Shown: in pieces, positions 881-20,287 of the stretch
Numbering within the stretch: the first letter of the stretch is position 1
How the letters are laid out: each line of letters opens with the position of its first letter
From: Thermodesulfobacteriota bacterium
GTDB taxonomy: Bacteria > Thermosulfidibacterota > Thermosulfidibacteria > Thermosulfidibacterales > B14-G1
Direction of reading: 5' to 3'
NCBI GenBank assembly: GCA_024274915.1
Contig: JAJSAC010000071.1
Location: 1-64,000, forward strand
Length of the DNA stretch: 64,000 bases
The notes under the pieces: model-generated
The model's database searches: none
What the model saw: the letters and a program-made list of their open reading frames with translations, nothing else
What the model was told of the DNA's origin: nothing
Made by a program: the position numbers and the translations under genes

Positions 881-1872
881 CACCGGGTCCTCACGTAGGG
901 TACATAGGGCTCCCCTTCCAGAAAGTGGCGGTAAAGCTTGTAGCACTCCAACCTGATGAGTCGCCTGTGGGAAACCTTGCGTCCCAATCCCTTGTGCATC
1001 ACCGTCTCCGCCAGGCGCTGCTCAAAAGCCTCGATAAACTTCTTCCTTCCCCGCTCCTTTAAATAGACCCCTTCCAGCTCCTCGGAAAAATCCTCTGGCC
1101 TGATTTCCTTTCTATTCACCAGGGAAAAGATCACCCGGTCCACAATCAAGGGCTTAAACACTTCCGCCACATCCAGGTTCAGGGTGAAAGACCTCTGGTT
1201 GGTCTCGTGGAGATACCCAATACGGGGATCAAGGTGGGTGCGATAAATCTCGGATAGGGCAGTAACATAAAGGAGTGAGTTGCCGAATGAAATGAGGGCA
1301 TTCATCCTGTTGGCAGGCGGCCTTCTGGAGCGTACTTCAAATGAAAACTCGGGATTTCCGGTAATGGTATCAAAAGCCGTGTAATACATCTCCCGGCCCT
1401 GCCCTTCCACGGCCATGAGCTGGGCAGTGTTGCCAGCCTCCTGAATCTTTCCCATCTGGGCTTCGAGAAGGGCAATCTGCTCCCTGAGCTCCCTGCCCCG
1501 GGAAGCATAAGTGCGTAGCACAAAGAGCATGTTGGCTATAGCCCCATAGACAAAGGCCCGGGCCAATCCCATGCGCCATTCGTCCTTCAAGAAATGCTGG
1601 GCCTGTTTCAGGATGATTAGCCCTGAGTTCATGTACTCCCGGGGATAGTAGGTACCCACGTAATAACCATAATGGTTGAAGAAGTGGAGAATCACATTCT
1701 TCCTGGTCAAAAATTCCAGAAAGCGCTTGTTGAGGGTTACCTCGGAGAAGACACACAAGGCCTCCACCGTTTCCACAGGCATCACCCTTTTGCCCTCTTC
1801 GGTGGCGAGAATAAGGGTGTTGCCCTCCCTTTTGAGCTCGCCGTCGGAAAAGATGTAAAGAACCCGTTTCAT
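880..1872 (-). CDS. cas1: CRISPR-associated endonuclease Cas1
   Basis: A 330-residue Cas1, the catalytic integrase subunit of spacer acquisition. The start at 1872 gives the family N-terminus MKRVLYIFSDGEL, with a GGGAAGG ribosome site just upstream. The metal ligands are visible: Glu in MAVEGQGREMYY (about residue 155), His in GYLHETNQRSF (about 220) and the acidic DVAEVFKPLIVDR segment just after. The sequence is of the type I-B/III-associated group. It is coupled to cas2 by an ATGA overlap and follows a VapC-like toxin gene by 17 bp, so it is probably co-transcribed with that toxin-antitoxin pair and with cas4. Confidence 0.95.
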   Translation of the reverse strand: MKRVLYIFSDGELKREGNTLILATEEGKRVMPVETVEALCVFSEVTLNKRFLEFLTRKNVILHFFNHYGYYVGTYYPREYMNSGLIILKQAQHFLKDEWRMGLARAFVYGAIANMLFVLRTYASRGRELREQIALLEAQMGKIQEAGNTAQLMAVEGQGREMYYTAFDTITGNPEFSFEVRSRRPPANRMNALISFGNSLLYVTALSEIYRTHLDPRIGYLHETNQRSFTLNLDVAEVFKPLIVDRVIFSLVNRKEIRPEDFSEELEGVYLKERGRKKFIEAFEQRLAETVMHKGLGRKVSHRRLIRLECYKLYRHFLEGEPYVPYVRTR

Positions 1873-1889
1873 CAGCCTTCCCGGGGAGC

Positions 1890-2285
1890 TCAATAGAACC
1901 TGAGATCCACCACCTGAGCCATTCTATCGAAATCCACATCATTGTGGAGGATGAACAGGTTGTTCTCTATGGCCGTCTGGGCAATGAGGCAATCGATCGT
2001 GCTGGTCAGGGTTATCCCTCTTCTACGGCATTCAAAATAGATCCTGGCAGCACTAGCAAAAGATTCCTTCCAATCCCTTAAACAATAGAACCTATGAGTG
2101 CCCAGATACTCTTTGAGCTGCTCAAACTCCTTTGCGGTCTTAACACCCTGCAGAAGTTCCTGATAAATGAAGGAATTGATACCAAAGGGAAGGCCAGTGG
2201 CCAGAATAAAATCAAGCTTCTCCACGGCCTCGTTTCCCTCACCCCTGAAGTAGTCGATGAGCACGGATGTATCCACCAGGACCAC
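1890..2285 (-). CDS. vapC: PIN-domain toxin, VapC family
   Basis: A 131-residue PIN-domain ribonuclease, probably a VapC toxin that cuts tRNA or other RNA when its antitoxin is lost. The four acidic positions of PIN enzymes are visible: Asp in VDTSVLIDYF (residue 5), Glu in YQELLQG (about 43), Asp in STIDCLIAQ (about 97) and Asp in HNDVDFDRM near the C-terminus. It lies 1 bp after the antitoxin gene 2287-2487 and 17 bp before cas1, so the pair is embedded between cas4 and cas1 in the cas operon. The RNA target is unknown. Confidence 0.88.
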   Translation of the reverse strand: MVLVDTSVLIDYFRGEGNEAVEKLDFILATGLPFGINSFIYQELLQGVKTAKEFEQLKEYLGTHRFYCLRDWKESFASAARIYFECRRRGITLTSTIDCLIAQTAIENNLFILHNDVDFDRMAQVVDLRFY

Positions 2286-2286
2286 C

Positions 2287-2487
2287 TTAACGCCCTCTCC
2301 TCAAGGCCTTATAGTCATAGTCTTCCCTGAAGCTGATCTTCCCCCTGAGCTTGCGCAGGTCCACCCTACGACGGGCTTCCACGTACTCCCTTAGGGCTTC
2401 GTGTATAAGCTCCTTTTTGGTCTTTGCCTTTGAGTATTTGAAGGCCTCCCTCAACAGTTCGTCATCCAATACAATATTTGTCCTCAC
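2287..2487 (-). CDS. vapB: VapB-type ribbon-helix-helix antitoxin
   Basis: A 66-residue protein with an N-terminal RTNIVLDDELLREAF strand-helix that fits the ribbon-helix-helix fold of VapB antitoxins. The basic C-terminal half (RRRVDLRKLRGKISF) would wrap the toxin. The GTG at 2487 is preferred because a perfect AGGAGG (2495-2500) stands 7 bases upstream; a TTG one codon earlier is the alternative. As in other vapBC operons it precedes its toxin gene and has its own strong -10 box upstream, so it probably represses that promoter. Confidence 0.85.
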   Translation of the reverse strand: MRTNIVLDDELLREAFKYSKAKTKKELIHEALREYVEARRRVDLRKLRGKISFREDYDYKALRRGR

Positions 2488-2507
2488 CAATACACCTCCT
2501 TATACAC

Positions 2508-2516
2508 ATTATAACA
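2508..2516 (-). promoter_or_regulatory. Extended -10 promoter of the vapBC pair
   Basis: The minus strand carries TGTTATAAT (a perfect TATAAT, complement of 2508-2513, with the TG extension). It lies about 20 bp upstream of the antitoxin start. No good -35 hexamer is present at the standard distance, which is acceptable for an extended -10. It implies that vapBC, and cas1-cas2 behind it, can be transcribed independently of the upstream cas genes. Confidence 0.5.
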
Positions 2517-2620
2517 CACACAATAAAAGAAGACGGTCATTAAATCAAGCCCAGTAATACCAGCGTGATAAATCCCATCCTGTCATCCCTAACAAAAAGT
2601 AAACTTCAGCAGGGTCATCA

Positions 2621-3124
2621 TTAACCCCAGCACAACTCATTGAAAGAACAAGACTTACAATACTTGATCTTTCTAGCCGATGGAGGCTCATCTGCCAATA
2701 GAACCGGCATCATCTGCTTCGTGAGAGCCTCAACTTCCCCCTCCAGCTCAGGGGTCAGCTCCACTCTCTCTGTCTTACGCTCCTTGGGAAAGAGTAAAAT
2801 CCCTTCCAACTCTAGACCCTTTTCGTGCTTCAAGTAATAAAGATAATAAGCAAGCTGTAGGTGAGCGGCCTTTTTATGCCTGGAAGTGCGCTTCACTTCT
2901 GCCACCAGCTCTCCCCTCACCAGATCTATCTTCAACAGGTTATCTACGAAAATCTCTTTCCTGTCTCTTTGATAAGAAAACTCGTGACTAATACGTCCCA
3001 GATCCAGCAACTCATGGTCCTGGGCAGGATTTATGTGGTGGAAATAAAACCACGCTTCCCGGGGACAAATCTGGTAGGCGTAAAAAACCGTGGCGTTGAT
3101 TCTGCTGGCCAAAACCGCCGTCAC
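2621..3124 (-). CDS. cas4: CRISPR-associated exonuclease Cas4
   Basis: A 167-residue Cas4 nuclease of the PD-(D/E)XK fold with an iron-sulfur cluster, acting with Cas1-Cas2 to trim prespacers and select those with a proper PAM. Visible are the first cluster cysteine in QICPREAWF (about residue 20), the nuclease core GELVAEVKRTSR (about 71-82) and the last three cysteines in CKSCSFNELCWG at the C-terminus. The start overlaps the end of the preceding ATPase gene by 4 bp. A decayed copy of the 5' part of another cas4 lies at 4443-4557. Confidence 0.95.
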   Translation of the reverse strand: MTAVLASRINATVFYAYQICPREAWFYFHHINPAQDHELLDLGRISHEFSYQRDRKEIFVDNLLKIDLVRGELVAEVKRTSRHKKAAHLQLAYYLYYLKHEKGLELEGILLFPKERKTERVELTPELEGEVEALTKQMMPVLLADEPPSARKIKYCKSCSFNELCWG

Positions 3125-5945: not shown

Positions 5946-5977
5946 ATCCCCTCCTTTGTACGGCTACTTTGTAAATA

Positions 5978-6005
5978 AGTATACGTCTAAGAAGCGGATC
6001 GTCAA
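5978..6005 (-). promoter_or_regulatory. Sigma-70-type promoter of the third toxin-antitoxin module
   Basis: Minus-strand TTGACG (complement of 6000-6005) and TATACT (complement of 5978-5983) are separated by 16 bp. The predicted start near 5971 leaves a 25-base leader before the antitoxin ATG. It gives this module its own expression behind cas3. Confidence 0.65.
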
Positions 6006-6090: not shown

Positions 6091-8376
6091 CTAGAAAGCA
6101 ACAGCCATGTCCATCCCGCTGTTCGGCATCAATCCTAACCCAGCATCGTATTGTACCTCGGCCATGAAAACCCTTTCCCTCTCAAGCCAATGTAAACGCC
6201 CTTCATTTCTGAGCTTGTGGAACAATCCCATTGTGATAGGTACCAGCAATCCTTCCGCCATCAAATATTCCTTTTCGTAGAAGTACCTCCTGAACTCCTC
6301 ATAGAGCGGCCAAGGTAGCACCTCCACCCCCTTAAAAAGTCCTCTGAATTTTTCCTCGCCCTCTTCGTGATGTCGCATTGGCCTAAGGGATTCGAGCAAA
6401 CCACTAAAAAGGCTGTAAACTCGATCAAACTCTTCTTGCTCTTTTCTTGTCCATCCACCCCGATAAACCCCTTCAATCCACTCCTGTACCTTTGGTACAG
6501 TGAGCTGAGTTCCATCGGGTGGCCCCTTATTGACTGTTTTTTCCAGCCGCTCAAGATCATAGATGTGCTTGACCCTATCAGAATTAAACTCAGTTGCTAC
6601 ATGCACTTCTACACCTTCCTTCCATTCTCCATATCGGTTTACCCGACCGAATCGCTGAAGCAAGTCATCCACTGGGGCAAGTTCCGTGAAACAAACGTCA
6701 AAACTGACATCCAAAGAGACCTCTACAACCTGCGTTGCCACAAGTACAGTAAGTGAACCTTCTTCTTTCCCTTGCAATATTCCCATCACCCGTTTTTCCT
6801 TCTCTACTCTGTCCCTCCTGGCAAAACGCCCATGTAGCAGATGCACCCCATCAAGTTTTTCTACCAGTTCACGGTAAATTCCCTGAGCTGGGTCAACCCT
6901 GTTAGCAACAACCAGTACCCGTTTACCTCCAAGGGCCGCCGCTAAAATCTCGGGGACCATTTTCTCCAGAGGTTCAGATTGCCATCTAAGGATATGCCGG
7001 AGTCCCCCCAGGAAATGATTCGTCCACTCATCATCCCCCTTTTTAAGCCTGAATTCAGGCAGTTTCTGGCCCACAGCTTCTGAAATCAGTGTCTTAAGAA
7101 AGTCAGGAAAGGTAGCGCTCATGAATAGAAATCTGCCACCTAGTGATTTGATGACACGGACCATTTTAAGGATGAGTGCAATAGTATGAGGATCGTAGGC
7201 ATGAATCTCGTCAAAGATGAAGAGCCCGCCAAGGACTTCGCCAATGCCTATTTCGAACCTTCGAACCCCGAAAAACCACTTCAATACCTGAAAAGGGGTG
7301 GCCACTTTGACCGGTCTATGAACCAAGCGGCTTATGTTAACCTCTTCCCTCGCCTTTTTATAAGCCGCTGCATATTCACCACCTCCTTCAAAATACTCCC
7401 TGAAGGCGTAATCAAGGGCCCGAGCGTGCAGTGCAGAAACCTTGTCATTCCCAAAGACACCTTTCAGGGTCTTTGCCATCGCTTCAACACTTGCTCGATA
7501 GGGTAGCAAATAGAAAACACGCTCGCCCCCCACTCGGTTGTTCATCGCCCACTGTAACGCAGCCCATGTCTTGCCAGAGCCGGTTGGCGCTTCCAAAATA
7601 GCATCGCCCTCATATTCCCCGATTCTTCTCTGAAAACAGCGAAGAGGCGGCGGACAAGGAGGCGAAATCTGAGATATGAATCGGGAGACCCCTGCACTGA
7701 CGGCGTGATCGGAGGCCATGAGCCACCCCCGGGTAAGGGTATAGATCAGGGCTTCTCTATCAAATTCACCCTTGCTGAAAGCTCCTATCTTCCTAAATTT
7801 CCGGTATAACCATTTCAAAATAGGAGCTGGAGGACTAAGCAATGATGAGGATGAAGGAAAACATAGCTCCGAAAAAGTCTGCTGAGAATTCACAAACTCC
7901 CTAATCCATTCCCAAAAGGGTTCCAATTCAGCTTTTCTTTTCTCAAATCTTTCTACCGCTTCACGGCTAAGATCGGGAATATGAGAGTATCCAGAGTCTA
8001 CCATGAGCTGTTGATCATCTATATCCTTGTGGTGAGCAATCACGGCAGCAAGGGCGATCTCCACAGCCTCATCTTTGCCTTTGACCATCGCTTTCAAAAG
8101 AGCGGCAGAGAGAACCTCGTGCCGGAAATCCCATCTTTCACTATTTTTAAGCGAGTTCTGGAAACCCCGAGCAGCCTTTCCCAGATCGTGGCTTATCCCA
8201 CTTAAAGCCAGAGCTCTCTCCAGACAGTTTGCCTTATCTTGTCCCAGCAACTGCTCGATGTGGAGACAGTATGCTCTTGCAACCGAGAGAGCATACTCCT
8301 TTACGTCTATCAGGTGCTCGCCAAGAGGAATAGACCCCTCTTTACACGACTTGGCCAGCGGTTCTTCCGATGACAT
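6091..8376 (-). CDS. cas3: Cas3 helicase-nuclease, type I-B
   Basis: A 761-residue single-chain Cas3 that is recruited to Cascade-bound DNA and unwinds and shreds the target. The N-terminal HD nuclease has SHDLGK (His63-Asp64), RHEVLSA (His86) and AHHKD (His115-His116). The SF2 helicase follows with Walker A EAPTGSGKT (262-270), a DEIH box in FIFDEIHAYD, MSATFP and motif VI QRFGRVNRYG. All catalytic residues I can check are present. The start overlaps cas5 by 35 bp; an AT-moderate 145-bp gap separates its end from the toxin-antitoxin modules. Confidence 0.94.
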   Translation of the reverse strand: MSSEEPLAKSCKEGSIPLGEHLIDVKEYALSVARAYCLHIEQLLGQDKANCLERALALSGISHDLGKAARGFQNSLKNSERWDFRHEVLSAALLKAMVKGKDEAVEIALAAVIAHHKDIDDQQLMVDSGYSHIPDLSREAVERFEKRKAELEPFWEWIREFVNSQQTFSELCFPSSSSLLSPPAPILKWLYRKFRKIGAFSKGEFDREALIYTLTRGWLMASDHAVSAGVSRFISQISPPCPPPLRCFQRRIGEYEGDAILEAPTGSGKTWAALQWAMNNRVGGERVFYLLPYRASVEAMAKTLKGVFGNDKVSALHARALDYAFREYFEGGGEYAAAYKKAREEVNISRLVHRPVKVATPFQVLKWFFGVRRFEIGIGEVLGGLFIFDEIHAYDPHTIALILKMVRVIKSLGGRFLFMSATFPDFLKTLISEAVGQKLPEFRLKKGDDEWTNHFLGGLRHILRWQSEPLEKMVPEILAAALGGKRVLVVANRVDPAQGIYRELVEKLDGVHLLHGRFARRDRVEKEKRVMGILQGKEEGSLTVLVATQVVEVSLDVSFDVCFTELAPVDDLLQRFGRVNRYGEWKEGVEVHVATEFNSDRVKHIYDLERLEKTVNKGPPDGTQLTVPKVQEWIEGVYRGGWTRKEQEEFDRVYSLFSGLLESLRPMRHHEEGEEKFRGLFKGVEVLPWPLYEEFRRYFYEKEYLMAEGLLVPITMGLFHKLRNEGRLHWLERERVFMAEVQYDAGLGLMPNSGMDMAVAF

Positions 8377-9046
8377 CGCCTATCCACTCCCACCGATAAA
8401 TAGGAATTGTCCAGTTCCGCTCGTTATCCTTCACCAACCATCCTGGAGCTTTGATAAAAAATGGTCTAGCAACCACCCCGAATATGGCAACACCTAAGGG
8501 GTGCCGATTCGGGTCCTCTGTGAAAGCGATAGGCAAACTGTATATTGAACAGGGCACACCTTGCTGACTAAAGACAATTTCTCTCGGCAGAAGAACCCCT
8601 TCAACCTCCCCCTCACTTATCTCTTCCAATTCCACCTCTGAAATGTGATCAACAGCTGCCAGATCCTGGGTCCTACCTAGCAGTAAAGCTCGTCTTGGCC
8701 GATCAAAGAAAGTTTGCCATACAGGAGGGAGGTAAAGTGTGAGACGTGGATAAAAGAGAAACTCCCTCTCTATCACATTGCGTGTCTTTGGGGATGGAGT
8801 CGAGATAATTTGAGCCCTATCGAAAGTAACAATAGCCTCAAGATCGCTTGTTATCCCTTTATGGCTAAATCTAAAGGCAAGCCACTCTATCTCACTAGGC
8901 TGAACCAGTCGCCCTGCCGCTGAAGAAATTATCCCGTAAATCGTGGAAAGGGGCGGGACAGACAGGGTGAGCTGATGTCCCACAGACCAAGGCACTCTGA
9001 AGGATGCAGTGTAAGAGATTAAATCTATCCTAATACCCCTTGGCAT
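8342..9046 (-). CDS. cas5: Cas5, type I-B (Tneap) Cascade subunit
   Basis: A 234-residue RAMP-fold Cas5 that caps the 5' handle of the crRNA in the type I-B Cascade. The N-terminal beta-strand region GIRIDLISYTASFRVP followed by SVPPLSTIYGIISSAAG corresponds to the Cas5 signature (the P-x-T/S-x-x-G loop). An ATG with a GAGGTGG ribosome site fixes the start. It lies 14 bp after cas7 and overlaps cas3. No Cas6-like catalytic activity is expected because a cas6 gene is present. Confidence 0.9.
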   Translation of the reverse strand: MPRGIRIDLISYTASFRVPWSVGHQLTLSVPPLSTIYGIISSAAGRLVQPSEIEWLAFRFSHKGITSDLEAIVTFDRAQIISTPSPKTRNVIEREFLFYPRLTLYLPPVWQTFFDRPRRALLLGRTQDLAAVDHISEVELEEISEGEVEGVLLPREIVFSQQGVPCSIYSLPIAFTEDPNRHPLGVAIFGVVARPFFIKAPGWLVKDNERNWTIPIYRWEWIGDVIGRTAGQVV

Positions 9047-9060
9047 CTACGCCACCTCAG

Positions 9061-10110
9061 CTATCCTACAAATTTTTCGAAAACCTCGTCCACGAGCCCC
9101 ACGGCTGATTCGATTGCCTCCCTGGGAGTGCCAGAAACCTCTATACACTTGCAGAACAATTCTTCGTCCTCAAATGTCTTCAATACCTCCTTCTCGTTCA
9201 ACAATACGGTTGGGCGGTATCCAAAAAACAGGGACTTGTTATTCTCTTCTCCCTTCAGCAACCGGCCTTTGTAGTCGGTCAGCACCGATTTCAAACGGTC
9301 CAGGTTCAACGTCACACTCTCTCGATTTACATCAGTCTCAAATAGTCTCTGGAAGGGTGCGTTTCCGCCATCCAAGAACCCTACAAGCACCACCACAGGA
9401 GCCACATCTGACAGGTTACGTGCAAGGCGAGCTCCGTAGCGCAGCCTTTCAAGGGCAAGCAAAACCTCTTTTACGCGCCGTATTCTCTCTTCCAGTGGCA
9501 TTTGTAACAGTCCATCTGAATCGATCAGACTATCACCGTATTTATCAGCCATATCCCCAGATAGATCCTTCATCTCTCCCACCTCGAATCGCCCCACATC
9601 CGCCAATGATAGGGTGAAAACTCCTTGCAAATAAGTGGTATAGTGTTCCGACTCAAATGGTATGATGTCAGCATCAGGAGGGAGGTTGCGGGAAAAGTGC
9701 CCAAAGTCCCTCTCTATCACGTTGGGAATAACAGAGATCAAAAGGCTGTTTTTTAAAGGCGAGATCCTACGGTATGTTCCTCCACTCCCTTTCTCTTTGT
9801 CCTTTTTACGCGCCGCCATGTACCCAAACAGATCGTCCTCTTCAAACTGGATGGGATCACCTTTCGTATAGGCGCTTTTCTTCTCACGTATCACCTCACT
9901 GGGAGTCCAACCAAAATCTTCATAAAGCACTTCCCTCCACCACCGTCTCCAAGCCTGTCCTGAAACGTAGGGGTAGCGGAGACGGCCCACACGGATCTGC
10001 TTGATGACAACAGCGTTATCTGCCCGTGTTCCCTGATCCTGACCGGCATTGTTCAACGCAGCGCCGTTTGCCTCAATAAGCACTGCCCCCGTCAAAACTG
10101 GATACGGCAT
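9061..10110 (-). CDS. cas7: Cas7 (Cst2/DevR family) Cascade backbone
   Basis: A 349-residue Cas7 of the Cst2/DevR family, which polymerises along the crRNA spacer to form the Cascade backbone. The N-terminus VLTGAVLIEANGAALNNAG, then RYPYVSGQAWRRWWRE, is the typical family beginning (guide-binding loop and RWW helix). The ATG at 10110 has GGAGG seven bases upstream; a GTG two codons earlier overlaps the cas8 stop and is an alternative. It is tightly linked to cas8 and cas5. Confidence 0.92.
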   Translation of the reverse strand: MPYPVLTGAVLIEANGAALNNAGQDQGTRADNAVVIKQIRVGRLRYPYVSGQAWRRWWREVLYEDFGWTPSEVIREKKSAYTKGDPIQFEEDDLFGYMAARKKDKEKGSGGTYRRISPLKNSLLISVIPNVIERDFGHFSRNLPPDADIIPFESEHYTTYLQGVFTLSLADVGRFEVGEMKDLSGDMADKYGDSLIDSDGLLQMPLEERIRRVKEVLLALERLRYGARLARNLSDVAPVVVLVGFLDGGNAPFQRLFETDVNRESVTLNLDRLKSVLTDYKGRLLKGEENNKSLFFGYRPTVLLNEKEVLKTFEDEELFCKCIEVSGTPREAIESAVGLVDEVFEKFVG

Positions 10111-10112
10111 CC

Positions 10113-11783
10113 TCACACCTCCTCGAGCTCTTTTTCAATCACCTCCAGCGGGATCTTATCCCTGGCCTTATCAAAGAGATAGGCGAGCAGATAGTCGCGC
10201 AGGAGGAAAAGTCTATTGGCATCCTCCAAAGGGGCCAAAAATATGAAGTCGTTCCATCCCATAGCCCCCCTTTGCACAGCATTCAGGTACGTTCCTCGAA
10301 TCGCCATAGGATTCCGGGATGTGCGCAAACGACCAATCCATCTCGGCAAATTCAGCAGTCCCTTTAACAGCCCCTCACCCACCTGCTGAACCTGCTCCAA
10401 GGTCTCATCAGGCGCTACTCTCTCCACATCCCCTTCCATAACCGGGAACTCCACGCCTTTGTCTTGGCAGTTTTGGTACTCGTAAATCACGGCCAGCAAG
10501 ATGTCTCTCACTTCACTTGCCACGCCGTAGCTGTTAGGAGGTACCAATTGGTAAAACTCTTCATGACTCATCCACCCACGCCTAACGAAGTCCAGTAATC
10601 TACCATAGAGCTCACCCCCCGTAGCCGTCCGAAGTGCGTGAACCAACTTTTTGGCATCGCCGTCCCTGGCTATCAACAACCCTAAACGTTCCAGCATCTT
10701 AATTTTTTCCCTGGGCATTTTTCTGACCTCCTCCAAATAGAGCCTATGGCCTACCCACCCTCCTGATAGAGATGGCGGATCATTTCGGAGACACGCACCT
10801 ATGATAGAATCGGCAGAGAGAATAGCCCTTGCTACCCCAGCCACAAATTTTATTCGGTTCTGTTTTTCTTTCCCTTTTAAATTGCTCCCCACCTGCAAAA
10901 GTTCCCGACGAAACCTCTTGTATTCCGCCGGATAGCTCCAAAGGCGACATAAGAAACGCACGAACTCGTTGGGAACTTGAATAGACTTCACAAACCCTCC
11001 CCTGTTATCGTTGGAGAACACATAGCCAGTGGTTGGAAAAGAAGCCTCGTAAATCGTCTCCAGGTCATGGGGAAATCTCTCAAGAAGCTCAAAGAGCAGA
11101 TAAAGTAGTGTTCCAGCCTCGCCTGCCGTCTCCCAATCGCCGTAGAAATCAAGGGCCTCTCCTTTGGTTATCAACCTCTCCAAGTGGGTCCATCCGTATT
11201 CCTGGGCAATAAGGGTTGCTATCTCAGGGGACTGGGTGTGAAGGAACCACATCGCTTTTCCCCCACCTACCCTCATCACAGACATGGGGAGAAACCTAAC
11301 CGCTAGAGCACATAACCCACAGATGGATTGTCCGTAAGCAAAGGCTGGATAGTAGTTCACAATCCCCTCGAGTAGGGGCATATTCACTTTCCGAGCAATG
11401 TTCATTGCCTCGGCAGGACGTCTATCACCACAGGATGGACAGATCGTGTCGCCCTTCTTTGTCAAACACAGCTTGGCCTTTTCGAGATCGCTACTAAGCC
11501 CTTCGTAGAATCTCGATTTAACGTTACTTATCCCTTTCTTCCAGTTAGAAGAGTTCGCCAGTTCACCGTTGGGGAAAATCTGAGATATAGGCCCCCTGGC
11601 GAAGTTCTTAGCCACATTAATACCCAAAGCCTGAGGACTAAGCATAACCTGCTCAAGCCCCTGACAAGCCTGATCAAGCAATTCTAGTGTCAATTCTTCC
11701 GGGTGCATGACCCCAGCCTTCACCATCAACGCCGCTAAACCCGCGTCCACAAAGGGGTGACCGGTAAAATGGGCCATTGCCAT
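10113..11783 (-). CDS. cas8: Cas8 (Cst1, CXXC-CXXC family), type I-B large subunit
   Basis: A 556-residue Cas8 of the Cst1 (Tneap) group, the Cascade subunit that recognises the PAM and helps recruit Cas3. The diagnostic pair of CXXC motifs is present: CPSCGDRRP and, about 45 residues later, CGLCALAVR, presumably one zinc site. The ATG at 11783 is selected because AAGGAG stands eight bases upstream (11792-11797); a 14-codon extension upstream lacks a ribosome site. It heads the I-B module cas8-cas7-cas5-cas3. A 190-bp junction separates it from the type III genes. Confidence 0.9.
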   Translation of the reverse strand: MAMAHFTGHPFVDAGLAALMVKAGVMHPEELTLELLDQACQGLEQVMLSPQALGINVAKNFARGPISQIFPNGELANSSNWKKGISNVKSRFYEGLSSDLEKAKLCLTKKGDTICPSCGDRRPAEAMNIARKVNMPLLEGIVNYYPAFAYGQSICGLCALAVRFLPMSVMRVGGGKAMWFLHTQSPEIATLIAQEYGWTHLERLITKGEALDFYGDWETAGEAGTLLYLLFELLERFPHDLETIYEASFPTTGYVFSNDNRGGFVKSIQVPNEFVRFLCRLWSYPAEYKRFRRELLQVGSNLKGKEKQNRIKFVAGVARAILSADSIIGACLRNDPPSLSGGWVGHRLYLEEVRKMPREKIKMLERLGLLIARDGDAKKLVHALRTATGGELYGRLLDFVRRGWMSHEEFYQLVPPNSYGVASEVRDILLAVIYEYQNCQDKGVEFPVMEGDVERVAPDETLEQVQQVGEGLLKGLLNLPRWIGRLRTSRNPMAIRGTYLNAVQRGAMGWNDFIFLAPLEDANRLFLLRDYLLAYLFDKARDKIPLEVIEKELEEV

Positions 11784-11796
11784 AGATTTATCTCCT

Positions 11797-11988
11797 TTAT
11801 TTTTTCCCACGTCCAAGCGCCTCAAACACTTGATTTCTTTTGGTTATTTGATCCAACACTGAAGCCAGGTTAAAAAATTTCGGTTTCAAATTTTCACTCT
11901 CCCAAATGTGCTGCCAGAACCACCAACTCCATATACACCCGCAAATTCTTGTGGGGTGGTCCATGGAGATTTCAATCTGAACACCCAT
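11797..11988 (-). CDS. Short hypothetical ORF at the type III/type I-B junction
   Basis: A possible 63-residue product, MGVQIEISMDHP at its start, rich in Trp and aromatic residues (CIWSWWFWQHIWE), then basic to its end. AGGGAG stands 8 bases before the ATG. It overlaps the end of the upstream RAMP gene by 17 bp in another frame and ends 14 bp before the cas8 start. It may be a real small gene, or the former C-terminus of the RAMP protein separated by a frameshift. No family is recognised. Confidence 0.35.
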   Translation of the reverse strand: MGVQIEISMDHPTRICGCIWSWWFWQHIWESENLKPKFFNLASVLDQITKRNQVFEALGRGKK

Positions 11989-12847
11989 ATGGGTTCTCCC
12001 TCTGTACCCTTTCCCATAGACCGGAAGGCAAGATATCAAACCAAGTTATACCACTAGATCTTCTCGAACCCGGGGTCCAAACAGCTCCCACTATTTGAGG
12101 ACCGTCTCTGTCCCATTGCTGTAGAATCTCAAGGCTCCCCTTGAAGGATCCATCAGTTCCTGTCAAATGAGCAAGGAGGATGTCCGTCTGGATCCTTGGA
12201 TTGTTGTTATCCAGCATCGCCGGTCTTCCAAAACACCCTTCTTTTTCTTCCCACCGTACTCGCTGAAGTTGTCCAAACCCATAGCGCGTGTCTGCACCTA
12301 CGAAAAGTTCTGAGATTTTTTCAATCTTGTCGCGAAGATTTTTGTCGGAAACAAACACATACCCCACAAAGGCTACCGGGGATGCTTCGACTCCACTGCC
12401 CCCACGCCAGAAAGGCTGAATACACTCCAGCTCTCGCAGACTTCCCTCCTCTGCGGTATCAGAAACAGGATCAATCGCTGTTCCAAGATGAGTAGCAAGC
12501 AAGCGCGTGCGGAGTTCTCTTTCTACTGCCTCTTTACCATTGTCTCTTTGCCAATGCAGTCCATCTCCATTCGTACAAGTTGGAAGCCAAACTAGCCACT
12601 CGCCCTGGACATGCTCTGCAGGAAAGAGATAAGTGAATCGAGCCTTTTCCATCAATTTTTCGCCAATTGCCTTATATTCAGGAAACTTTGAGCTTTCCTT
12701 GAGCCGGGCGAGCTCCGCTGTGAGAGCCCCCCAAATTGTCCTGGCGGGTATGTAGAGCCTGGTCCTATTTAGGATCCCCGCAGGTGAAATACCCAAGTGG
12801 AGTGGCGAGCGAACCAGCCAAACCCAGCGGTAAAGCGTCCAGCTCAT
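11972..12847 (-). CDS. Type III RAMP protein, Cmr3-like (Cas5 group)
   Basis: A 291-residue RAMP-superfamily subunit. The N-terminus WLVRSPLHLGISPAGILNRTRLYIPARTIWGALTAEL shows the RAMP beginning (strand, ligand loop, then a Y-I-P-x-x-x-x-x-G motif), and TRYGFGQLQRV near residue 215 is a glycine-rich loop. By elimination among the six genes of the module it should fill the Cmr3/Cas5 place that holds the crRNA 5' handle, but assignment to Cmr3 by sequence alone is tentative. Its start overlaps the cmr5-like stop as ATGA. It is the last gene of the type III module. Confidence 0.7.
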   Translation of the reverse strand: MSWTLYRWVWLVRSPLHLGISPAGILNRTRLYIPARTIWGALTAELARLKESSKFPEYKAIGEKLMEKARFTYLFPAEHVQGEWLVWLPTCTNGDGLHWQRDNGKEAVERELRTRLLATHLGTAIDPVSDTAEEGSLRELECIQPFWRGGSGVEASPVAFVGYVFVSDKNLRDKIEKISELFVGADTRYGFGQLQRVRWEEKEGCFGRPAMLDNNNPRIQTDILLAHLTGTDGSFKGSLEILQQWDRDGPQIVGAVWTPGSRRSSGITWFDILPSGLWERVQRENPYGCSD

Positions 12848-13215
12848 GATGCACCGCCTCCCTTGGCTTTCAGGTGATAGCGCGCGTAGGAAAAGGCCGT
12901 GCGCAACAGGTCGCGCGCAAAGAGGAGGTCGTCCAGATCCCCCGATAGTTTCTTTATGGCCTCTAGGATGTCGTTTGCGCGATCCAACCGGTCGTCAAAG
13001 ATGCCTTGAAGGAAATTTAAGGTTTCCGAACGCATGTCACCAGCCACGTTGCCATGCCGGGCCTGGAGGTAGAGGAACATGGCATACGGCCCCTGCTCCT
13101 CCAGCACGGTCAGAGCGGCATTGATGACTTTTTCCTCCATACCTTGAATCTGGGCGATTCCACGTCCCAGTTCGGCACACCAGATGTCTAGGTTGGTCAT
13201 CTGAGTCTCACTCAT
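12844..13215 (-). CDS. cmr5: Type III small subunit, Cmr5-like (Cas11)
   Basis: A 123-residue, largely helical protein beginning MSETQMTNLDIWCAELG. Length, helical character, the central YAMFLYLQARHG segment and its position after cmr4 match Cmr5, the small subunit that lines the target-RNA groove. The ATG at 13215 is preceded by AGGAGG at a good distance and overlaps the end of cmr4 by 8 bp; a longer frame upstream runs inside cmr4. The ATGA at its end couples it to the next RAMP gene. Confidence 0.75.
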   Translation of the reverse strand: MSETQMTNLDIWCAELGRGIAQIQGMEEKVINAALTVLEEQGPYAMFLYLQARHGNVAGDMRSETLNFLQGIFDDRLDRANDILEAIKKLSGDLDDLLFARDLLRTAFSYARYHLKAKGGGAS

Positions 13216-14263
13216 GGCTGGCCTCCTCTTGCATCTGTGCTTCTGACTCATCCTGCGCTTCGGTAGACCGGTTCTCCTGGCAAGCCACATCCGCTCTATC
13301 TGGACACTTGTCCTCATAAACCACTTCCATCCGCCCCATGCCGCGCGTACCCATGCCACCGATGCCCAGATGTTTCAGGTACGGATGGGCCTGTTTCGCC
13401 TTTTCATGCACATCATCTGGACTGGACACGGCCGTAATGGATTGCCCATTTATGCGGTAGTGCGGGGGATTCCTGGCGATGATTTCCCACACCAGCACCG
13501 TGCCACGGGGAAGGGCCTCGTAGGAGAACAGGGCCTTATCTTCGGCCGCGCCGGTTTCCGGGTTGATGGAAACCGAGGTGCGCACCTCCAGATTGCTGTT
13601 CACGATGTGGGCGAAGAGACGGTCCGGCACCAGAGCAAGGCGGTTACAAATGTAGTCTGGAACGCCAAGCGAGGCCAGGTGGCTTGTTATATTGCCCATT
13701 TCACTGCACGGCTGGGTCTCCAGCAGTAGCCAACCCAGGTTGAGTTTGTTGCCTGGCTGTTCTACATACACGGCCTCACTATCCACGCCGTTCGCCGTCA
13801 AGCCCATCCATTCCATCGCCATGGGCGAGGCGACCCACATAGGCCCTTGGCGGGTGGGAACAGGGAAAAGAATCACATGAGCATCAGTGAAGGCAGCCAA
13901 GCCGGCGAAGCCGCCCTCTTGTCCTGCCCCTCGGGCGAACCCAAAGACCGTGCAGACCGGACAGTCGTGCTGGCGGCAGTGACCGCGGTTTTCGTGGAGC
14001 CCCAACCCGGCACAATCGGGGTAAAAGGGCTTTTCCCGGACCTGTTGACCGCTTTGGCGTTGTTGCTGGCGCTGTTCTTCGTAGTACATCGCCACATAGG
14101 TCCGGTACACACCGGCCAGGCTGGAGCCGGGGATTTTGGGGATTTGCGTGACCGGATCCCGGACAATCGTCAAGTCCACCCGACCGATGCTGGCGCCGCC
14201 GGTGCCCACATGGATGGGGTCCAGAGCCACTCCGATTTGGGTGAATTTTTTGTAACTCGCCAT
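13208..14263 (-). CDS. cmr4: Cmr4, type III Cas7 backbone RNase
   Basis: A 351-residue Cmr4/Cas7 subunit that forms the crRNA-bound backbone and cuts target RNA every 6 nt. The N-terminal PIHVGTGGASIGRVDLTIVRD followed by IPKIPGSSLAGVYR is the Cmr4 signature; the Asp of GRVDL (residue 30) aligns with the known catalytic Asp of Cmr4 VDLPI loops. CRQHDCPVCTVFG (about 97-109) is the usual cysteine-rich segment, and GIGGMGTRGMGRM (about 308-320) the glycine-rich C-terminal loop. It starts 1 bp after the csx11-like gene. RNA cleavage is therefore expected to be active. Confidence 0.9.
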   Translation of the reverse strand: MASYKKFTQIGVALDPIHVGTGGASIGRVDLTIVRDPVTQIPKIPGSSLAGVYRTYVAMYYEEQRQQQRQSGQQVREKPFYPDCAGLGLHENRGHCRQHDCPVCTVFGFARGAGQEGGFAGLAAFTDAHVILFPVPTRQGPMWVASPMAMEWMGLTANGVDSEAVYVEQPGNKLNLGWLLLETQPCSEMGNITSHLASLGVPDYICNRLALVPDRLFAHIVNSNLEVRTSVSINPETGAAEDKALFSYEALPRGTVLVWEIIARNPPHYRINGQSITAVSSPDDVHEKAKQAHPYLKHLGIGGMGTRGMGRMEVVYEDKCPDRADVACQENRSTEAQDESEAQMQEEASHE

Positions 14264-14264
14264 C

Positions 14265-17200
14265 TCAGCCCTCCTTGCTCTCTTTGAGTGCAGTAAGGTG
14301 CCAGTTCAAGGCCCGAGTGAGCAGGCCTTCCATGGCCGCTTGGGTAAGGCTTTCCAGCGCATTCGCGGGAAGCCCCTCCAGGTGATGGGCCAGCAGGGCC
14401 CGGTAGGTCTCCCGACGCAGGTCGTCGGGCGCCTGCCGCGCGCCCTGGGGATCGCGCCAGGAGGATTCCAGCTGGGCTATGGCGCTTCGCAGACGTTGGA
14501 GCGCGGTGGTGCTGGGCGCCACCCGGAGCAAAAGGCGCCAGGTCTCCCGCATATGCTGCCAGTCATCAAGAGTATGGGGTTTTGGAATGCGAAACCGGGC
14601 GGCAGTCGAATCCATCAACAGGGTGACCACACTGGAAGGTGCCACTTTAATGCCGTCGCCCCGCTGCAGGTCGGCCACGTGCCGAAAGATGTGGCCATCG
14701 GGATGGCGGAAATCCCGGGGGAAGCGCAACTCGGTGTCCTCCACCTCCACATAGGGATAGAACACGTCCTCCCGGCCATCGGGCATGGTCACAGGCACGA
14801 GACAGTGCAGGGTTTGATCCCCGTGGCGGAGATATAAGGCCACGACATCGGGCCGCTTCTCAATGTCCACCACCTGCCAGTACGCCTCTTTTTGCCGCTC
14901 CAGGGCATCTTCCACGTTCCGGGCCGCCTCCACTACCGCCTGGTAAGGCAGGGGGTGGGGGAAGGCAATTACCCCCACCCGTAAGGGCAGGCGGTCCCAT
15001 ACCCGGGCAAAGCGCTCCTTCCACCATGTAACGGCCAGGTCCACGCACTCGGAAGCCACTTCCAACGGCACCAGCACCCGGAAGCGCAGGGGCGAGAGAC
15101 TGACCGGAATCACCGGCGCGTAGACGGCCAGGTGGGTGTGAGGGCGACCGAGTTCGCGCACAGATTGGATCTCCGTTTCTTTCTGGTCAGACCGGTCTTC
15201 GTCTTCCAAGAAAATTTTCTTTTCGCCCTTGAGAAAAGCCTCACCTTTCTCCTCAGAGTCAAGCAAACGAGCCAGGTTGGAAGCCGTGACAAAGCCACCC
15301 ACGCTCCGGATATAGACCAGGCTCAACTGAATGCCCCGCCAGCGGCCATCGTACAGGGTCAAGTCTTTCCAGCCGTTCTTATCTTTGGGAATGAGCACCA
15401 GCCGCCGCACCCGCCAGGGGTTGTCGCTGCGGGAGGCGATTTGGCGGAATTCCCGGAGCAGATCGCGGAAGAACTCTTCTGCCTCGCGCCAGAAACGATA
15501 CACTCGGCCCGGCGAGGGAAGTTTGGCGAAGAGTTGATGGGTTAACCAGGCCGCGCGGTTGTCGTCTGTGAGGGAATTCCAATCAGAGGCTTGAGCACGG
15601 TCCTCGACGATTTGTTCGTAAAAAGTTCTCCACAGCCGTTCTTCATAATCAGCACTTGATTCACCACTCTGCTGTGGATTGGCACGACGAAAGTGGCGGA
15701 ATCCTTCCTGAAGGTTGGCCAAGAACAAGTCTGTTTCTGGAAAAGCCCAATGTCCAGAGCTATTTCGGAACTTGTGCCGAATCTCGTTCTTGGTTCTATC
15801 CCACAGATCATCAGGTGAAATGGGATTGCTTATATAGCTGCGGCGAGATTCGTCCCGTTGCCAAAATTCCGAGAGCACTGGATTGAACCGTGCCCACCCC
15901 GGTATCGCTTGTGCCCTTAGGCTGTCCACCCGCTCACCAGAAAGCCAGGGTTCCACGTCCAAGGAGAAGGTGAGCAAGGCCAGGCGGCCGTTGCGGTCGG
16001 CCACTTCCTCGAACCAGATGGTGTCATAACCCAGGCGTCCCTGCACCCAATCGTCCCGGCGGTGGTGGCGTCGGTCGCGGCACACCCGGCAGGGGCGGGT
16101 CTTGCTGGTGGGGTCGCCGTTCAGCCGTACACGGCACACGGGACAAACATGGCCACGGGCTTCGGAGGGTGTCGTCCAGCGCACGTCCCACTGTTTGTGA
16201 ACAGGAACGGCCACGACTTTCAGGGCCTCTTCGTGCTCCTGCACAATAGGTACCAGGGAACGGGTGGGTTTGCTCAGGTGTACATAGGGTGGGGTTTCCA
16301 GATCCAGATCCTGAGCAATTGCCTCAGCTTGCTCCTGTAACCACTCCTCCCATCTATTGAGCCAGTTGGCCGGAGCCGTTTCATCAAATCGCTCCCCCGG
16401 AAAGGAGAAGACAGCTACGTTACTGTCCCAGTAGAGTAAGGAGCCGATGGCCAAGTCCACCTCCACCAGTTCGGCCGTCCGGTCAAAGAACGCCTGAATT
16501 GCACCCCAGGCGCCGGTCCAGTCGCCGATCTTCACCGAGCGGGCCTCGTAGTGGTCAGTACCAATGGCTACGGTGAGCAGGCGCCAGCGGGTGTTGTTTT
16601 TGATGAAGCCGTTCAGGTAAGCATCTCTATCTTTTTGGGATAACCCGGAGAGATTGATGCCCAAGTTTTGGGCGATTTGTTGAATATCCTGTTTAGCCCA
16701 TGGAAATGAGGAGTTTGGATTGGTAGAAGCCAGCAACGCTCCGGCCACTGCGCTCTTGAACAGGGCCGCGGCCACATAGGACTGGTCCCACAGGGTCACA
16801 TCGTTGTTGGGCAGGCGGGTTTCGGCCAGGGTGGAGAGAAAGGCGCGGCGGATGAAAGAACCCTCACCAATCGCTTGCTCCCGCCAGCGCTTCCAGGCGG
16901 GCACATCGGCCGATGGACTGCTGGTTCCCAATTGACGGGCTTCTTCCAACGCCCAGCGGATTTCTCTTACCAATTGCTGCCAGCCCTGAGGGGGCAGAAT
17001 TTCCGGCGGCTCGGCCAGAAGGTTCCGTTTGGGGTGGCCCCAGGGCGAGGAGAGCCACATGTGGAGCAGAGTTTGATTGAGGTAACGCGAAGTGTTTCCT
17101 GGCAGGTTCTTCTCCACACCGGAGACGATGCCGTGGGCGGCCTGGAGCAGGCCGAGGAGGCCGAGGTGACGCTGACGATGTCGCTCAGTAAATTCGGCAA

Positions 17201-17456
17201 AGGTGCCTGGCCACGCATTTGGATCAATGCCTGAGCCATAAAGACGCCGAGTCCATTCGAGTAAATTGTCCCATGGGAAAGGGGGCGTCTCTTGGTCGTG
17301 CCATTTTTCGTAACTATAGTCGACGCGCTCGCCGCCCTGCTTTTTCAAAAACTCCAGCCGCGCCTTGCCGGCCATGTGGAACCAGCCAATGGCTTCCATG
17401 GCCAGGAGCAAAGGCCGGTTTTGGCGCAGGGTTTCCGCAGGGGTGAAGGTGCTCAT
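14265..17456 (-). CDS. csx11: Csx11-type Cas10 large subunit lacking GGDD
   Basis: A 1,063-residue large subunit of a type III complex, best matching the Csx11 branch of Cas10. Visible are a helical N-terminal part with NDVTLWDQSYVAAALFKSA (about residues 218-236, the region corresponding to the HD motif of other Cas10 proteins), a first palm-like segment (RWRLLTVAIG to YWDSNVAVFSFPG, 291-354), a zinc knuckle CPVC-CRVC (438-459) and a second palm-like half beginning RLALLTFSLDVEPW. No GG(D/E)D occurs anywhere, so cyclic oligoadenylate synthesis is not expected, and where a DH/HD pair would be expected the sequence reads DQ. The ATG at 17456 has GGAGGG upstream and overlaps the previous gene as ATGA. 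CpG- and CGC-rich codon use differs from the flanking core genes. Confidence 0.78.
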   Translation of the reverse strand: MSTFTPAETLRQNRPLLLAMEAIGWFHMAGKARLEFLKKQGGERVDYSYEKWHDQETPPFPWDNLLEWTRRLYGSGIDPNAWPGTFAEFTERHRQRHLGLLGLLQAAHGIVSGVEKNLPGNTSRYLNQTLLHMWLSSPWGHPKRNLLAEPPEILPPQGWQQLVREIRWALEEARQLGTSSPSADVPAWKRWREQAIGEGSFIRRAFLSTLAETRLPNNDVTLWDQSYVAAALFKSAVAGALLASTNPNSSFPWAKQDIQQIAQNLGINLSGLSQKDRDAYLNGFIKNNTRWRLLTVAIGTDHYEARSVKIGDWTGAWGAIQAFFDRTAELVEVDLAIGSLLYWDSNVAVFSFPGERFDETAPANWLNRWEEWLQEQAEAIAQDLDLETPPYVHLSKPTRSLVPIVQEHEEALKVVAVPVHKQWDVRWTTPSEARGHVCPVCRVRLNGDPTSKTRPCRVCRDRRHHRRDDWVQGRLGYDTIWFEEVADRNGRLALLTFSLDVEPWLSGERVDSLRAQAIPGWARFNPVLSEFWQRDESRRSYISNPISPDDLWDRTKNEIRHKFRNSSGHWAFPETDLFLANLQEGFRHFRRANPQQSGESSADYEERLWRTFYEQIVEDRAQASDWNSLTDDNRAAWLTHQLFAKLPSPGRVYRFWREAEEFFRDLLREFRQIASRSDNPWRVRRLVLIPKDKNGWKDLTLYDGRWRGIQLSLVYIRSVGGFVTASNLARLLDSEEKGEAFLKGEKKIFLEDEDRSDQKETEIQSVRELGRPHTHLAVYAPVIPVSLSPLRFRVLVPLEVASECVDLAVTWWKERFARVWDRLPLRVGVIAFPHPLPYQAVVEAARNVEDALERQKEAYWQVVDIEKRPDVVALYLRHGDQTLHCLVPVTMPDGREDVFYPYVEVEDTELRFPRDFRHPDGHIFRHVADLQRGDGIKVAPSSVVTLLMDSTAARFRIPKPHTLDDWQHMRETWRLLLRVAPSTTALQRLRSAIAQLESSWRDPQGARQAPDDLRRETYRALLAHHLEGLPANALESLTQAAMEGLLTRALNWHLTALKESKEG

Positions 17457-18460
17457 GGGGTCCCTCCCTCCGGAAGCCAGTTTTGAATCTTCTGCCACAA
17501 GTTTTCTCTCTGGCTTTCGGTTTCCGTGCCATGCTCTTTATGGAAAGCTCGCCACGCTATGATTTCCGCCGTGCCCCAGCCCACAGTGCGTTTGGCGGAA
17601 ATGCCGTAGGTGATGAGCAAAGCCTCGATGGCTTCAAGCAGTTTAGGGAGCACGTCTGCGGGCTTAGGCTTTGGCTTCATCCCCGGCCATGGAGCGTAGA
17701 GGAGCCAGAGCGTGCCCTTCGCACCCTCAACCTCTTCTTCACTTCCATCCTGATTTTTCTTCACCCTCTGGCCAGGGACCACCTCGTAGTAAATGGGCTG
17801 CCTTCCTGCTCGAGTGGCCCGACGGTGTGGGTTGATGACCTCGAAACTGATTTTGTTGAACCAGGTAGGATAGAAGATCAGAGCACCCTGATGGAAATCT
17901 TTCTCTTCTCCCTTTTCGTTGCCGAAGAGATGGAGAATCCAATCTGGATCTCGCCATTCCTTTTCAAAGGATTTTCCGGCCTCGAGAAACGCCAACAAGC
18001 CCGCCTGCATCCGACAGGCCCAACGCAACATCCCCTTCCAGGATGAAGCAGCCATAATAGGTACGCCGAAGACCCGGTCTTTGCGCACGGCATTGTCCAT
18101 CACGTGGAAGATCCGATCGTCCTTGGAATACCAGGGCGTGAGAAGCTCAAAGTCCACCTGCAAGCCGAGCCAGTGGGGGGAAGGTAAGGAACAGAAATCG
18201 GTGACCGCGAAAGGGAAACATCGGACAGGAATTTGTTTGGTCGCATGCCTCCTATACGCCTTTTGAATCTCCACAATTTGTTTCCGAAGAACCTTTGCTC
18301 GGTCCTTGTCCCCTTGCTCTTCAGCCAATGCGCGCTCAATTTCTAAGGCGAAGACTTTTGTCGAAAGGCGGTCAATCCATCCGGATACATAGCCCCATGG
18401 CAAAGGAATAGCCTCTATATCATCCTGCTGACTCAAATATGCAAAGTGATCCCAGGTCAT
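17453..18460 (-). CDS. Type III RAMP protein, Cmr6-like
   Basis: A 335-residue RAMP-superfamily protein. The region FELLTPWYSKDDRIFHVMDNAVRKDRVFGVPIMAASSWKGMLRWA shows the family pattern of a variable ligand loop followed by (I/V)P-x-x-S-x-K-G-x-L-R. HLFGNEKGEEKDFHQGALIFYPTWF and the C-terminal KRTVGWGTAEI (glycine-rich) are also typical of Cas7-type subunits. Its place in the module suggests Cmr6, which sits at the 3' end of the crRNA. Overlaps of 4 bp with cmr1 and csx11 show coupled translation. Confidence 0.72.
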   Translation of the reverse strand: MTWDHFAYLSQQDDIEAIPLPWGYVSGWIDRLSTKVFALEIERALAEEQGDKDRAKVLRKQIVEIQKAYRRHATKQIPVRCFPFAVTDFCSLPSPHWLGLQVDFELLTPWYSKDDRIFHVMDNAVRKDRVFGVPIMAASSWKGMLRWACRMQAGLLAFLEAGKSFEKEWRDPDWILHLFGNEKGEEKDFHQGALIFYPTWFNKISFEVINPHRRATRAGRQPIYYEVVPGQRVKKNQDGSEEEVEGAKGTLWLLYAPWPGMKPKPKPADVLPKLLEAIEALLITYGISAKRTVGWGTAEIIAWRAFHKEHGTETESQRENLWQKIQNWLPEGGTP

Positions 18461-19470
18461 GCCTCGCCTCCCGTTTGGAACAATTCGTTCAAAATCTGCT
18501 CGCCGGTTTTGAACTCAGCATCGGCGTTGAAACCCTGGTTGCGCCACACCGTCCTCAAACGACGCTTCATCTCTTCAAAATCCACCAAATTAGGCCTTAC
18601 AAAACCAAATGTGCGCTCTTCCTCGGTAGGATGTTTGAAACTGAAGATCTTCTTGCTTTCCTGCTGACGACCAGCAAGCCAGCGATTTATCTCGGTATCT
18701 TGCCATAAGTTCTGTGCTTGATTTTTTCCCATATTCCTTCCGAGAACACGATTATATGTGCTATAGCCGGAGGACTGTCGCGCCAAATACCGCTCCTTCA
18801 CACACCAGAAGTTTTTCAACGAGGCCCAGGAATAATCGTATTGACGTCCGTCTTCTTTGTATTGGGATGGGATGTTCTTGCGCCAACGTTCCTCTTTCAA
18901 GTAGGCTTTAATGTCATCCACGGTTTTTTTACACCGCCAATCGCTTGGTCCGTTTACATATTGGATGAGGCCAAAATTCTTATGATGAAAAGCATTCTCC
19001 CGTCCATGCTCATCCGACGGCTTGAGCACCGTCTTTCCCCCGATGGCTCCGTAATCGGCAATAAGACGCAAGGTCAGGTCCAGTAGGCACCATTCTTCGT
19101 CACGAATCGCTCGCATGGGAATGAAACGCAGGATAAATGTCTGGCCGGCCTGGATCTGACCTTGAATGACTTCCCCATCCTCATCCACAACCATCAACCG
19201 GAACTTCCGCGCCCAGCCGGTGCAGCCGAAGAGTTCGCACACCACGCAGTGGTGGCCGGGCTTATGGGGTTCTTTCACATCTTTACTCGGACAACGCACC
19301 CCGTCTGCCGTAGGATCACAGGCTTCGCCACCCAATCCCCGCACCAGTACCTCGTACCACCAGCGAAGCGACCCCATAAGGCCAGTGGGGATCAGTCTAT
19401 GAGGATTCCCTTCGGCATCACCGGTCCATATGTCGGTTAAGGCACGAATCGTCCATTCCTTTTCCTTCAT
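18457..19470 (-). CDS. cmr1: Cmr1-like type III RAMP subunit
   Basis: A 337-residue Cmr1-like Cas7-family protein. The N-terminal IWTGDAEGNPHRLIPTGLMGSLRWWYEVLVRG is the Cmr1 signature, in which the G-S-L-R-W-W helix follows the metal/RNA loop. CVVCELFGCTGWARKFR (about 85-101) and YGAIGGKT are further family traits. Cmr1 and Cmr6 close the 3' end of the crRNA in Cmr complexes. It overlaps cas6 upstream and the cmr6-like gene downstream by 4 bp each, so the whole type III module is translated as a coupled set led by cas6. Confidence 0.85.
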   Translation of the reverse strand: MKEKEWTIRALTDIWTGDAEGNPHRLIPTGLMGSLRWWYEVLVRGLGGEACDPTADGVRCPSKDVKEPHKPGHHCVVCELFGCTGWARKFRLMVVDEDGEVIQGQIQAGQTFILRFIPMRAIRDEEWCLLDLTLRLIADYGAIGGKTVLKPSDEHGRENAFHHKNFGLIQYVNGPSDWRCKKTVDDIKAYLKEERWRKNIPSQYKEDGRQYDYSWASLKNFWCVKERYLARQSSGYSTYNRVLGRNMGKNQAQNLWQDTEINRWLAGRQQESKKIFSFKHPTEEERTFGFVRPNLVDFEEMKRRLRTVWRNQGFNADAEFKTGEQILNELFQTGGEA

Positions 19471-20243
19471 CCGCGCTCCTCCCTCCTTGTTTCCACCACC
19501 TCCACCATCCCAAAGCCCTGGGAGTTTTTGGAGCCCAGGCCGGCGTTGTAGGCCAGGGTGAAGTAGGGCTCGGGGAGGTTGAGCTCATAAAGACCCGTCC
19601 AGCCTTTTATCCAGAATCCTTTGAAGTTGATGATGGCCTCATTCTTCTTGGAAACCTTGGCGGGCTTGATGTAAGCATCTTCCAGGGAAGGGAGTTCCTC
19701 TACTTCCCCATAATAGGCCCGGGCCTTCCTCTGAAGGTTTTCCAGGATCTTTTGGGAGAACTCCTGCTCCCAGGGGTTGTAATAGTAGGTTTTCTTCTTT
19801 CCAGCAGCATCGAAAAGGGTGCTGTACGTGGTTATAGGAGACAGGGCCCTCACCAACACCGGCCCTTTAGCCTCCACGGGCATCTCCACTTCCACCGAGG
19901 TGAAACGGCACGCCTGGCCGTTGAGCTGCACCTCGCCAAACCTCACCAGATACACGGCCAGGGATTCCAGAATATCCGTCTCCATGGCCCCCACCTTCAG
20001 AAAAATGGGCCCGGTGAAGGTGATGGTTCTGCCCTTAAAATCCATGTGCCGTTGGCGGGACATGAGCCGGGAAAAGGTGAAGAGCTTGAATCGCCGCTTG
20101 CCGTATTGGAAACCCTCCTCATGGAGCCAACGGGCCAAGGCGTCGTCCAGACTTCGATAGATCATGGCCTGGACCAGATGGTTGTAGTGAACAGGCATCG
20201 TGATGGAACCTACCGGAGACTCAAGTTTTAGAGAAATTCTCAC
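19467..20243 (-). CDS. cas6: Cas6 crRNA-processing endoribonuclease
   Basis: A 258-residue Cas6 that cuts the repeat to give crRNAs with an 8-nt 5' handle. The N-terminal RAMP half contains VHYNHLVQAMIYRSLDD with a candidate catalytic His, and the C-terminal NAGLGSKNSQGFGMVEVVE is the hallmark glycine-rich loop. The GTG at 20243 is chosen because AAGGAG (20250-20255) stands six bases upstream; a GTG nine codons earlier lies before that ribosome site. It is the first gene of the leftward cas operon and, as the only cas6 in the window, probably supplies crRNA to both effector complexes. Confidence 0.95.
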   Translation of the reverse strand: MRISLKLESPVGSITMPVHYNHLVQAMIYRSLDDALARWLHEEGFQYGKRRFKLFTFSRLMSRQRHMDFKGRTITFTGPIFLKVGAMETDILESLAVYLVRFGEVQLNGQACRFTSVEVEMPVEAKGPVLVRALSPITTYSTLFDAAGKKKTYYYNPWEQEFSQKILENLQRKARAYYGEVEELPSLEDAYIKPAKVSKKNEAIINFKGFWIKGWTGLYELNLPEPYFTLAYNAGLGSKNSQGFGMVEVVETRREERG

Positions 20244-20287
20244 AAGGATCTCCTTACTTGGAACTAGCACTACTCAGGTTTTAGCCT

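Follow-up and report, generated by a model that had tools for sequence, protein, structure and literature searches.

A subtype III-C CRISPR-Cas module beside a type I-B operon, with a Csx11-family Cas10 lacking the cyclase and HD nuclease motifs

The window (the whole stretch of DNA analysed, 64,000 nucleotides) contains a complete subtype III-C cassette in the order Cmr1-Cmr6-Csx11-Cmr4-Cmr5-Cmr3 (19470 to 11972), which is placed between cas6 and a type I-B effector operon (Table 1). In the run from cas6 to cmr3 (20270 to 11972, minus strand), all genes are intact, and most of them have 4-bp overlaps and ribosome-binding sites. Profile matches revealed the gene set of subtype III-C in this operon, that is, Cmr1, Cmr3, Cmr4, a Cmr5 of the III-C type, and Cmr6. 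The start of cmr5 was chosen by means of the ribosome-binding site and an alignment of homologues and is most likely at 13215 rather than at 13359. The initial annotation of this DNA had described a type III module here; the module is real, but the extent given was too short, since Cmr3 (12847-11972) had been omitted although it is part of the module.

Table 1. Features of the III-C module and its surroundings in the window
Feature	Coordinates	Strand	Size	Remarks
cas6	19467..20270	-	267 aa	processes pre-crRNA; first in the run; TIGR01877 118.5 bits over cut-off; PADLOC Cas6b 233.6 bits
cmr1	18457..19470	-	337 aa	RAMP; 4-bp overlap with cas6; TIGR01894 54.9 bits over cut-off
cmr6	17453..18460	-	335 aa	RAMP; 4-bp overlap with cmr1; PADLOC Cmr6 218.4 bits
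csx11/cas10c	14265..17456	-	1,063 aa	from ATG 17456; large subunit of subtype III-C; 4-bp overlap with cmr6
Altered HD motif	17364..17378	-		residues 27-31 of Csx11 (HMAGK for HD.GK); from clade comparison
Zinc knuckle	16080..16145	-		C438-C441...C456-C459 of Csx11 (CxxC...CxxC)
GGDD-equivalent site	15084..15095	-		Ser788-Pro-Leu-Arg791 of Csx11, in predicted Palm2 hairpin; from hhalign and fold prediction
cmr4	13208..14263	-	351 aa	backbone subunit with catalytic Asp30 (GRVDL); TIGR02580 112.9 bits over cut-off
cmr5	12844..13215	-	123 aa	small subunit, III-C type; PADLOC Cmr5 CAS-III-C 100.4 bits
cmr3	11972..12847	-	291 aa	Cas5-like RAMP; PADLOC Cmr3 244.9 bits
Type I-B effector operon	6091..11783	-		cas8b 11783-10113, cas7 10116-9061, cas5 9046-8342, cas3 8376-6091; downstream of III-C
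Adaptation genes	614..3124	-		cas4 3124-2621, cas1 1893-880, cas2 946-614; Pfam matches
CRISPR array	6..373	-		six 30-bp repeats; runs past the contig end

The type I-B operon (11783-6091) follows directly downstream of cmr3, which bears out the tight coupling of the III-C module to type I-B that had been proposed. The repeat of the array, read on the minus strand, terminates in ATGGAAAC, and no viral contig contained an exact match to the spacer core for four of the five complete spacers. Between cas3 and cas1 (1890-6000), among and before the adaptation genes, there are PIN-domain genes and an AAA/DUF4143 gene (PADLOC PDC-S01). On the other side of the module, a HicB-like antitoxin gene lies between two near-identical copies (99%; 20502-20572 and 21260-21330) of a 71-bp sequence from the 3′ end of pckA.

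The large subunit has its best PADLOC match in Cas10c of CAS-III-C (366.7 bits, E = 7e-110). The Csx11 profile TIGR02682 also matches (E = 1.2e-69), but the score of 235.7 bits lies 13 bits under the curated cut-off of 248.95. There was no Pfam match, and sequence searches of the PDB with Csx11 gave no match to Cas10. When an AlphaFold2 model computed from 15 sequences (pLDDT 71.6, pTM 0.73) was compared to the PDB with Foldseek, the best matches were Cas10 subunits from solved structures of Cmr and Csm complexes, a result that comes without a residue alignment and from a model in which the N-terminal third, including the HD region, is of low confidence. The PADLOC match and the structural matches uphold the assignment of the large subunit to Csx11, and the zinc knuckle that had been noticed in it is invariant in all 15 aligned proteins.

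The 1,063-residue protein had been said to lack GG(D/E)D, and this is correct; a hidden variant of GGDD was considered and rejected, as none is present in the protein. In a comparison of the Csx11 profile with five GGDD-containing Cmr2 proteins, hhalign set VYSGGDDVLALLP against VSLSPLRFRVLVP and thereby the GGDD of active Cmr2 against SPLR (E = 2.8e-4, with a modest probability of 41%), and a single-sequence check against Cmr2 of Thermus thermophilus HB8 alone gave an E value of 3.6e-3. The placement of the site derives from this one profile-profile match together with the fold prediction, in which strands 783-787 and 791-797 flank SPLR as a palm hairpin would; this puts the site in a predicted Palm2 hairpin around Ser788-Arg791. 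Across the 15 alignment rows the site reads SPLR, SPQR, NPQR, EPST, EPRT, EPQV, or TPDQ; the acidic pair is kept in none of them, and TPDQ (L020) retains one acidic residue. Loss of the cyclase is a published hallmark of III-C, and the headline finding restates a known fact: the Cas10 of this group was described as "inactivated Cas10 (Csx11 subfamily)" already in 2011 (PMC3150331), Hoikkala et al. 2024 reported III-C to be without cyclase sites and known effectors, with the HD domain kept in half of III-C (PMC11229360), and the classification of 2025 restates the inactivation of Cas10 in III-C (PMC12669027).

The HD nuclease motif, which is not obligatory for III-C, is absent from the window Csx11, with His-Met in place of His-Asp. 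A tree of 16 Csx11 proteins is divided into two groups with 100/100 support; HM.GK is found in all ten members of the group that includes the window protein, and LHD..K or VHD..K in all six members of the other. HM is also present in the copy on a Thermus plasmid and in locus L014, and the second HD segment changes from VAHVDK in cyanobacteria to VSGVEK in the window protein. Judged by these motifs, the clade of the window Csx11, which is well supported and spans several phyla, is without an HD nuclease signature as well. This agrees with the published report that half of III-C has no HD domain that can be recognised, and it refines what is known rather than being a discovery. Second Csx11 genes occur in two genomes that also have an HM-clade copy (L049 on contig C403 of G011 and L050 on contig C24 of G015), and the one of G015 belongs to the HD clade. 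Asp30 of Cmr4, in the GRVDL motif whose retention had been pointed out, is conserved in all 18 III-C Cmr4 proteins compared, one from each locus, and is found in the III-B Cmr4 of HB8 and of contig C67 of the same genome too. With the two motifs of Cas10 gone, Cmr4 appears as the only recognisable catalytic site remaining in the HM-clade complex.

Relatives of the module were collected by one genome scan, which yielded 16 loci, and by a plasmid search that added Thermus and Anabaena. The loci of the genome scan come from Chloroflexota, WOR-3, Planctomycetota, Proteobacteria, Bacteroidetes, and Cyanobacteria, among others, and Csx11 and Cmr4 are ~60 to 77% identical to their relatives in other phyla. 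The gene order is constant, save for losses at contig ends, interruptions by insertion sequences, and unmatched genes; cmr1 has the same position in 13 of the 16 loci searched. One locus from a WOR-3 genome (L010) has the same whole composite (cas6-III-C-cas8b-cas7-cas5-cas3-cas4-cas1), and the type I neighbours of other III-C loci are I-G genes (L011) or a Cas8a of the I-A type (L013 and L020). Phage records gave no match and an alignment scan of viral contigs none either; a viral match (L002) was rejected as a chance match.

In accordance with what had been noted before, no CARF, Csm6, or Csx1 effector gene was found within the window. The only PADLOC match with CARF in its name, CARF_LolE_TM, was rejected as a CARF gene, the simplest explanation being its LolE-type transmembrane part matching a MacB/FtsX permease. 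Another contig of the same genome (C67, 1-4900; L029) starts inside cmr4, after which come cmr5, cmr6, and genes for CARF-RelE and CARF-HEPN; this is the tail of another operon, of type III-B. That operon should include cmr2, but neither cmr2 nor csm1 nor the Cmr2 palm turned up in searches of the genome; TIGR02577 gave no match. The claim of a non-signalling system therefore holds for the III-C complex, which is not expected to make cyclic oligoadenylate (cOA), but, because of the III-B tail with its two CARF effectors, it cannot be extended to the host cell, which probably has cOA signalling.

A separate Cas10 palm match (E below 1e-20) was found in 11 of the 15 other III-C genomes, with GGDD in all 11 proteins, compared to 70 of 301 Chloroflexota genomes, counted by hand (Fisher p = 8e-5, two shared genomes removed). 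Since the groups were not matched by temperature or by defence load, and since the cut-off was chosen after the fact so that GGDEF cyclases would be excluded, the excess of active Cas10 in III-C genomes is a lead. A weak PF22335 match in G011 was rejected as a canonical Cas10, as it is the second Csx11 of that genome. In the genome G010, a Csx15 gene and a transmembrane CARF gene (15642-17053) are located directly downstream of the III-C operon (L007), and in the III-B operon of this genome (L046) a Csx15-like gene is likewise followed by a gene for a membrane protein (10889-12341). III-C loci are thus not invariably without signalling genes. The title of a 2026 paper calls Csx15 a ring nuclease (PMC13148439); its function had been left open in an earlier survey (PMC12409355).

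In our model, which we consider likely to be right as a whole, the III-C complex is a guided cutter of target RNA and serves as a supplementary RNA arm beside I-B and III-B. The III-C genes would make a Cmr-like crRNA complex, whose guides are most likely supplied by the array in the first few hundred nucleotides of the window; Cas6 would cut them out, and the type I-B operon would draw on them too. Csx11 retains the shape of Cas10 and the zinc knuckle. Because, judged by sequence, the cyclase site (SPLR) and the HD motif (His-Met) are both lost, the complex probably binds matching transcripts of phages or plasmids and cuts them at the repeated Asp30 sites of Cmr4, without the production of cOA and without cleavage of DNA; target-RNA cutting is probably all that the complex can still do. 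In this way, a sequence-specific RNA arm may supplement the DNA arm of I-B, to the benefit of the latter, and would stand beside a separate III-B system.

A different output of Csx11 has to be considered, since the protein is under strong constraint although both sites are lost: P789, F792, and P797 are invariant in 15 of 15 rows, and so is the stretch DG..D..YPYV (D893, G894, D897, Y900-Y902). The remodelled palm or the C-terminal part, for instance around the latter stretch, might catalyse another, undescribed reaction, or target binding might activate a partner protein. However, a recognisable catalytic motif, an extra domain, or a Pfam match was not found, and constraint at a subunit interface would give the same pattern; we consider such an output unlikely. 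It is also imaginable that a signal-less III-C complex is part of a network in which cOA made by III-B drives the effectors, for example, if the removal of target RNA tunes the III-B response. The CARF-RelE and CARF-HEPN genes of the III-B tail would fit, as would the frequent second Cas10 palm in III-C genomes (11 of 15, versus 70 of 301 Chloroflexota; p = 8e-5) and the Csx15 and CARF genes of G010, which resemble the pair in its III-B locus. Against this, the comparison group was unmatched and the threshold chosen afterwards, and cmr2 of the genome's own III-B operon is absent from the assembly, and we give signalling in trans a small chance.

The loss of both Cas10 active sites could also mean that III-C is a decaying module whose function is gone, and the insertion sequences in the Thermus locus and the frameshifts in L014 and L015 would be in line with decay. 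In the window, however, no gene is broken, the overlaps are tight and ribosome-binding sites are present, Csx11 and Cmr4 are conserved at ~60 to 77% identity across phyla, and Asp30 of Cmr4 never varies; decay is very improbable.

Guided cutting of target RNA thus remains the explanation that we prefer for this complex. More speculatively, and with considerable doubt, the whole HM clade may be viewed as a widely transferred, doubly inactivated, plain guided RNase that is a partner of type I and signalling type III systems and removes target RNA without a costly cOA response. The present analysis adds the loss of HD in a clade, the recurrence beside different type I systems, and the coexistence of III-C with a III-B tail and its CARF effectors in this genome and with a separate GGDD Cas10 in most of the other III-C genomes. 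Little bench work seems to have been done on III-C: literature searches returned surveys and predictions, and biochemistry was not found. Such a clade, in which no catalysis by Cas10 can be recognised, would make it possible to see in isolation what the cell gains from the RNA cutting of Cmr4, and the III-C/I-B composite is a natural setting for asking whether DNA targeting is backed up by an RNA arm.

The cassette is a rare but otherwise ordinary module of subtype III-C, and its large subunit is without the signal-making site, as is already known for all members of the subtype. It shares with subtype III-C (Csx11/Cas10c, MTH326-like) the Csx11-family Cas10 without the cyclase motif, the Cmr-type RAMPs, the III-C Cmr5, and a locus free of effectors; it differs from III-C in general in the additional loss of the HD motif, the TIGR02682 score just below the cut-off, and the type I-B operon directly after it. 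III-B (Cmr), as in Thermus thermophilus HB8, has homologues of Cmr1, 3, 4, 5, and 6 and the Cas10 fold in common with it, but Cmr2 of III-B carries GGDD, which the large subunit of the window lacks, and is usually accompanied by CARF effectors. In III-F, III-G, III-H, and III-I, which are other subtypes, the cyclase of Cas10 is likewise described as inactivated or lost (PMC12669027, PMC11229360). The III-C module on plasmid pHB5018b of T. thermophilus HB5018 (L003, 11686-22669) has a Csx11 that is ~64 to 72% identical, the same gene order, and the HM motif; unlike the intact module of the window, it is broken up by insertion sequences, which are located in cmr1 and beside cmr6, and there is extra sequence within csx11. 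In two other genomes, HmaB-like methylase genes are found downstream of III-C (L006, 6296-9082, and L008, 10180-13038).
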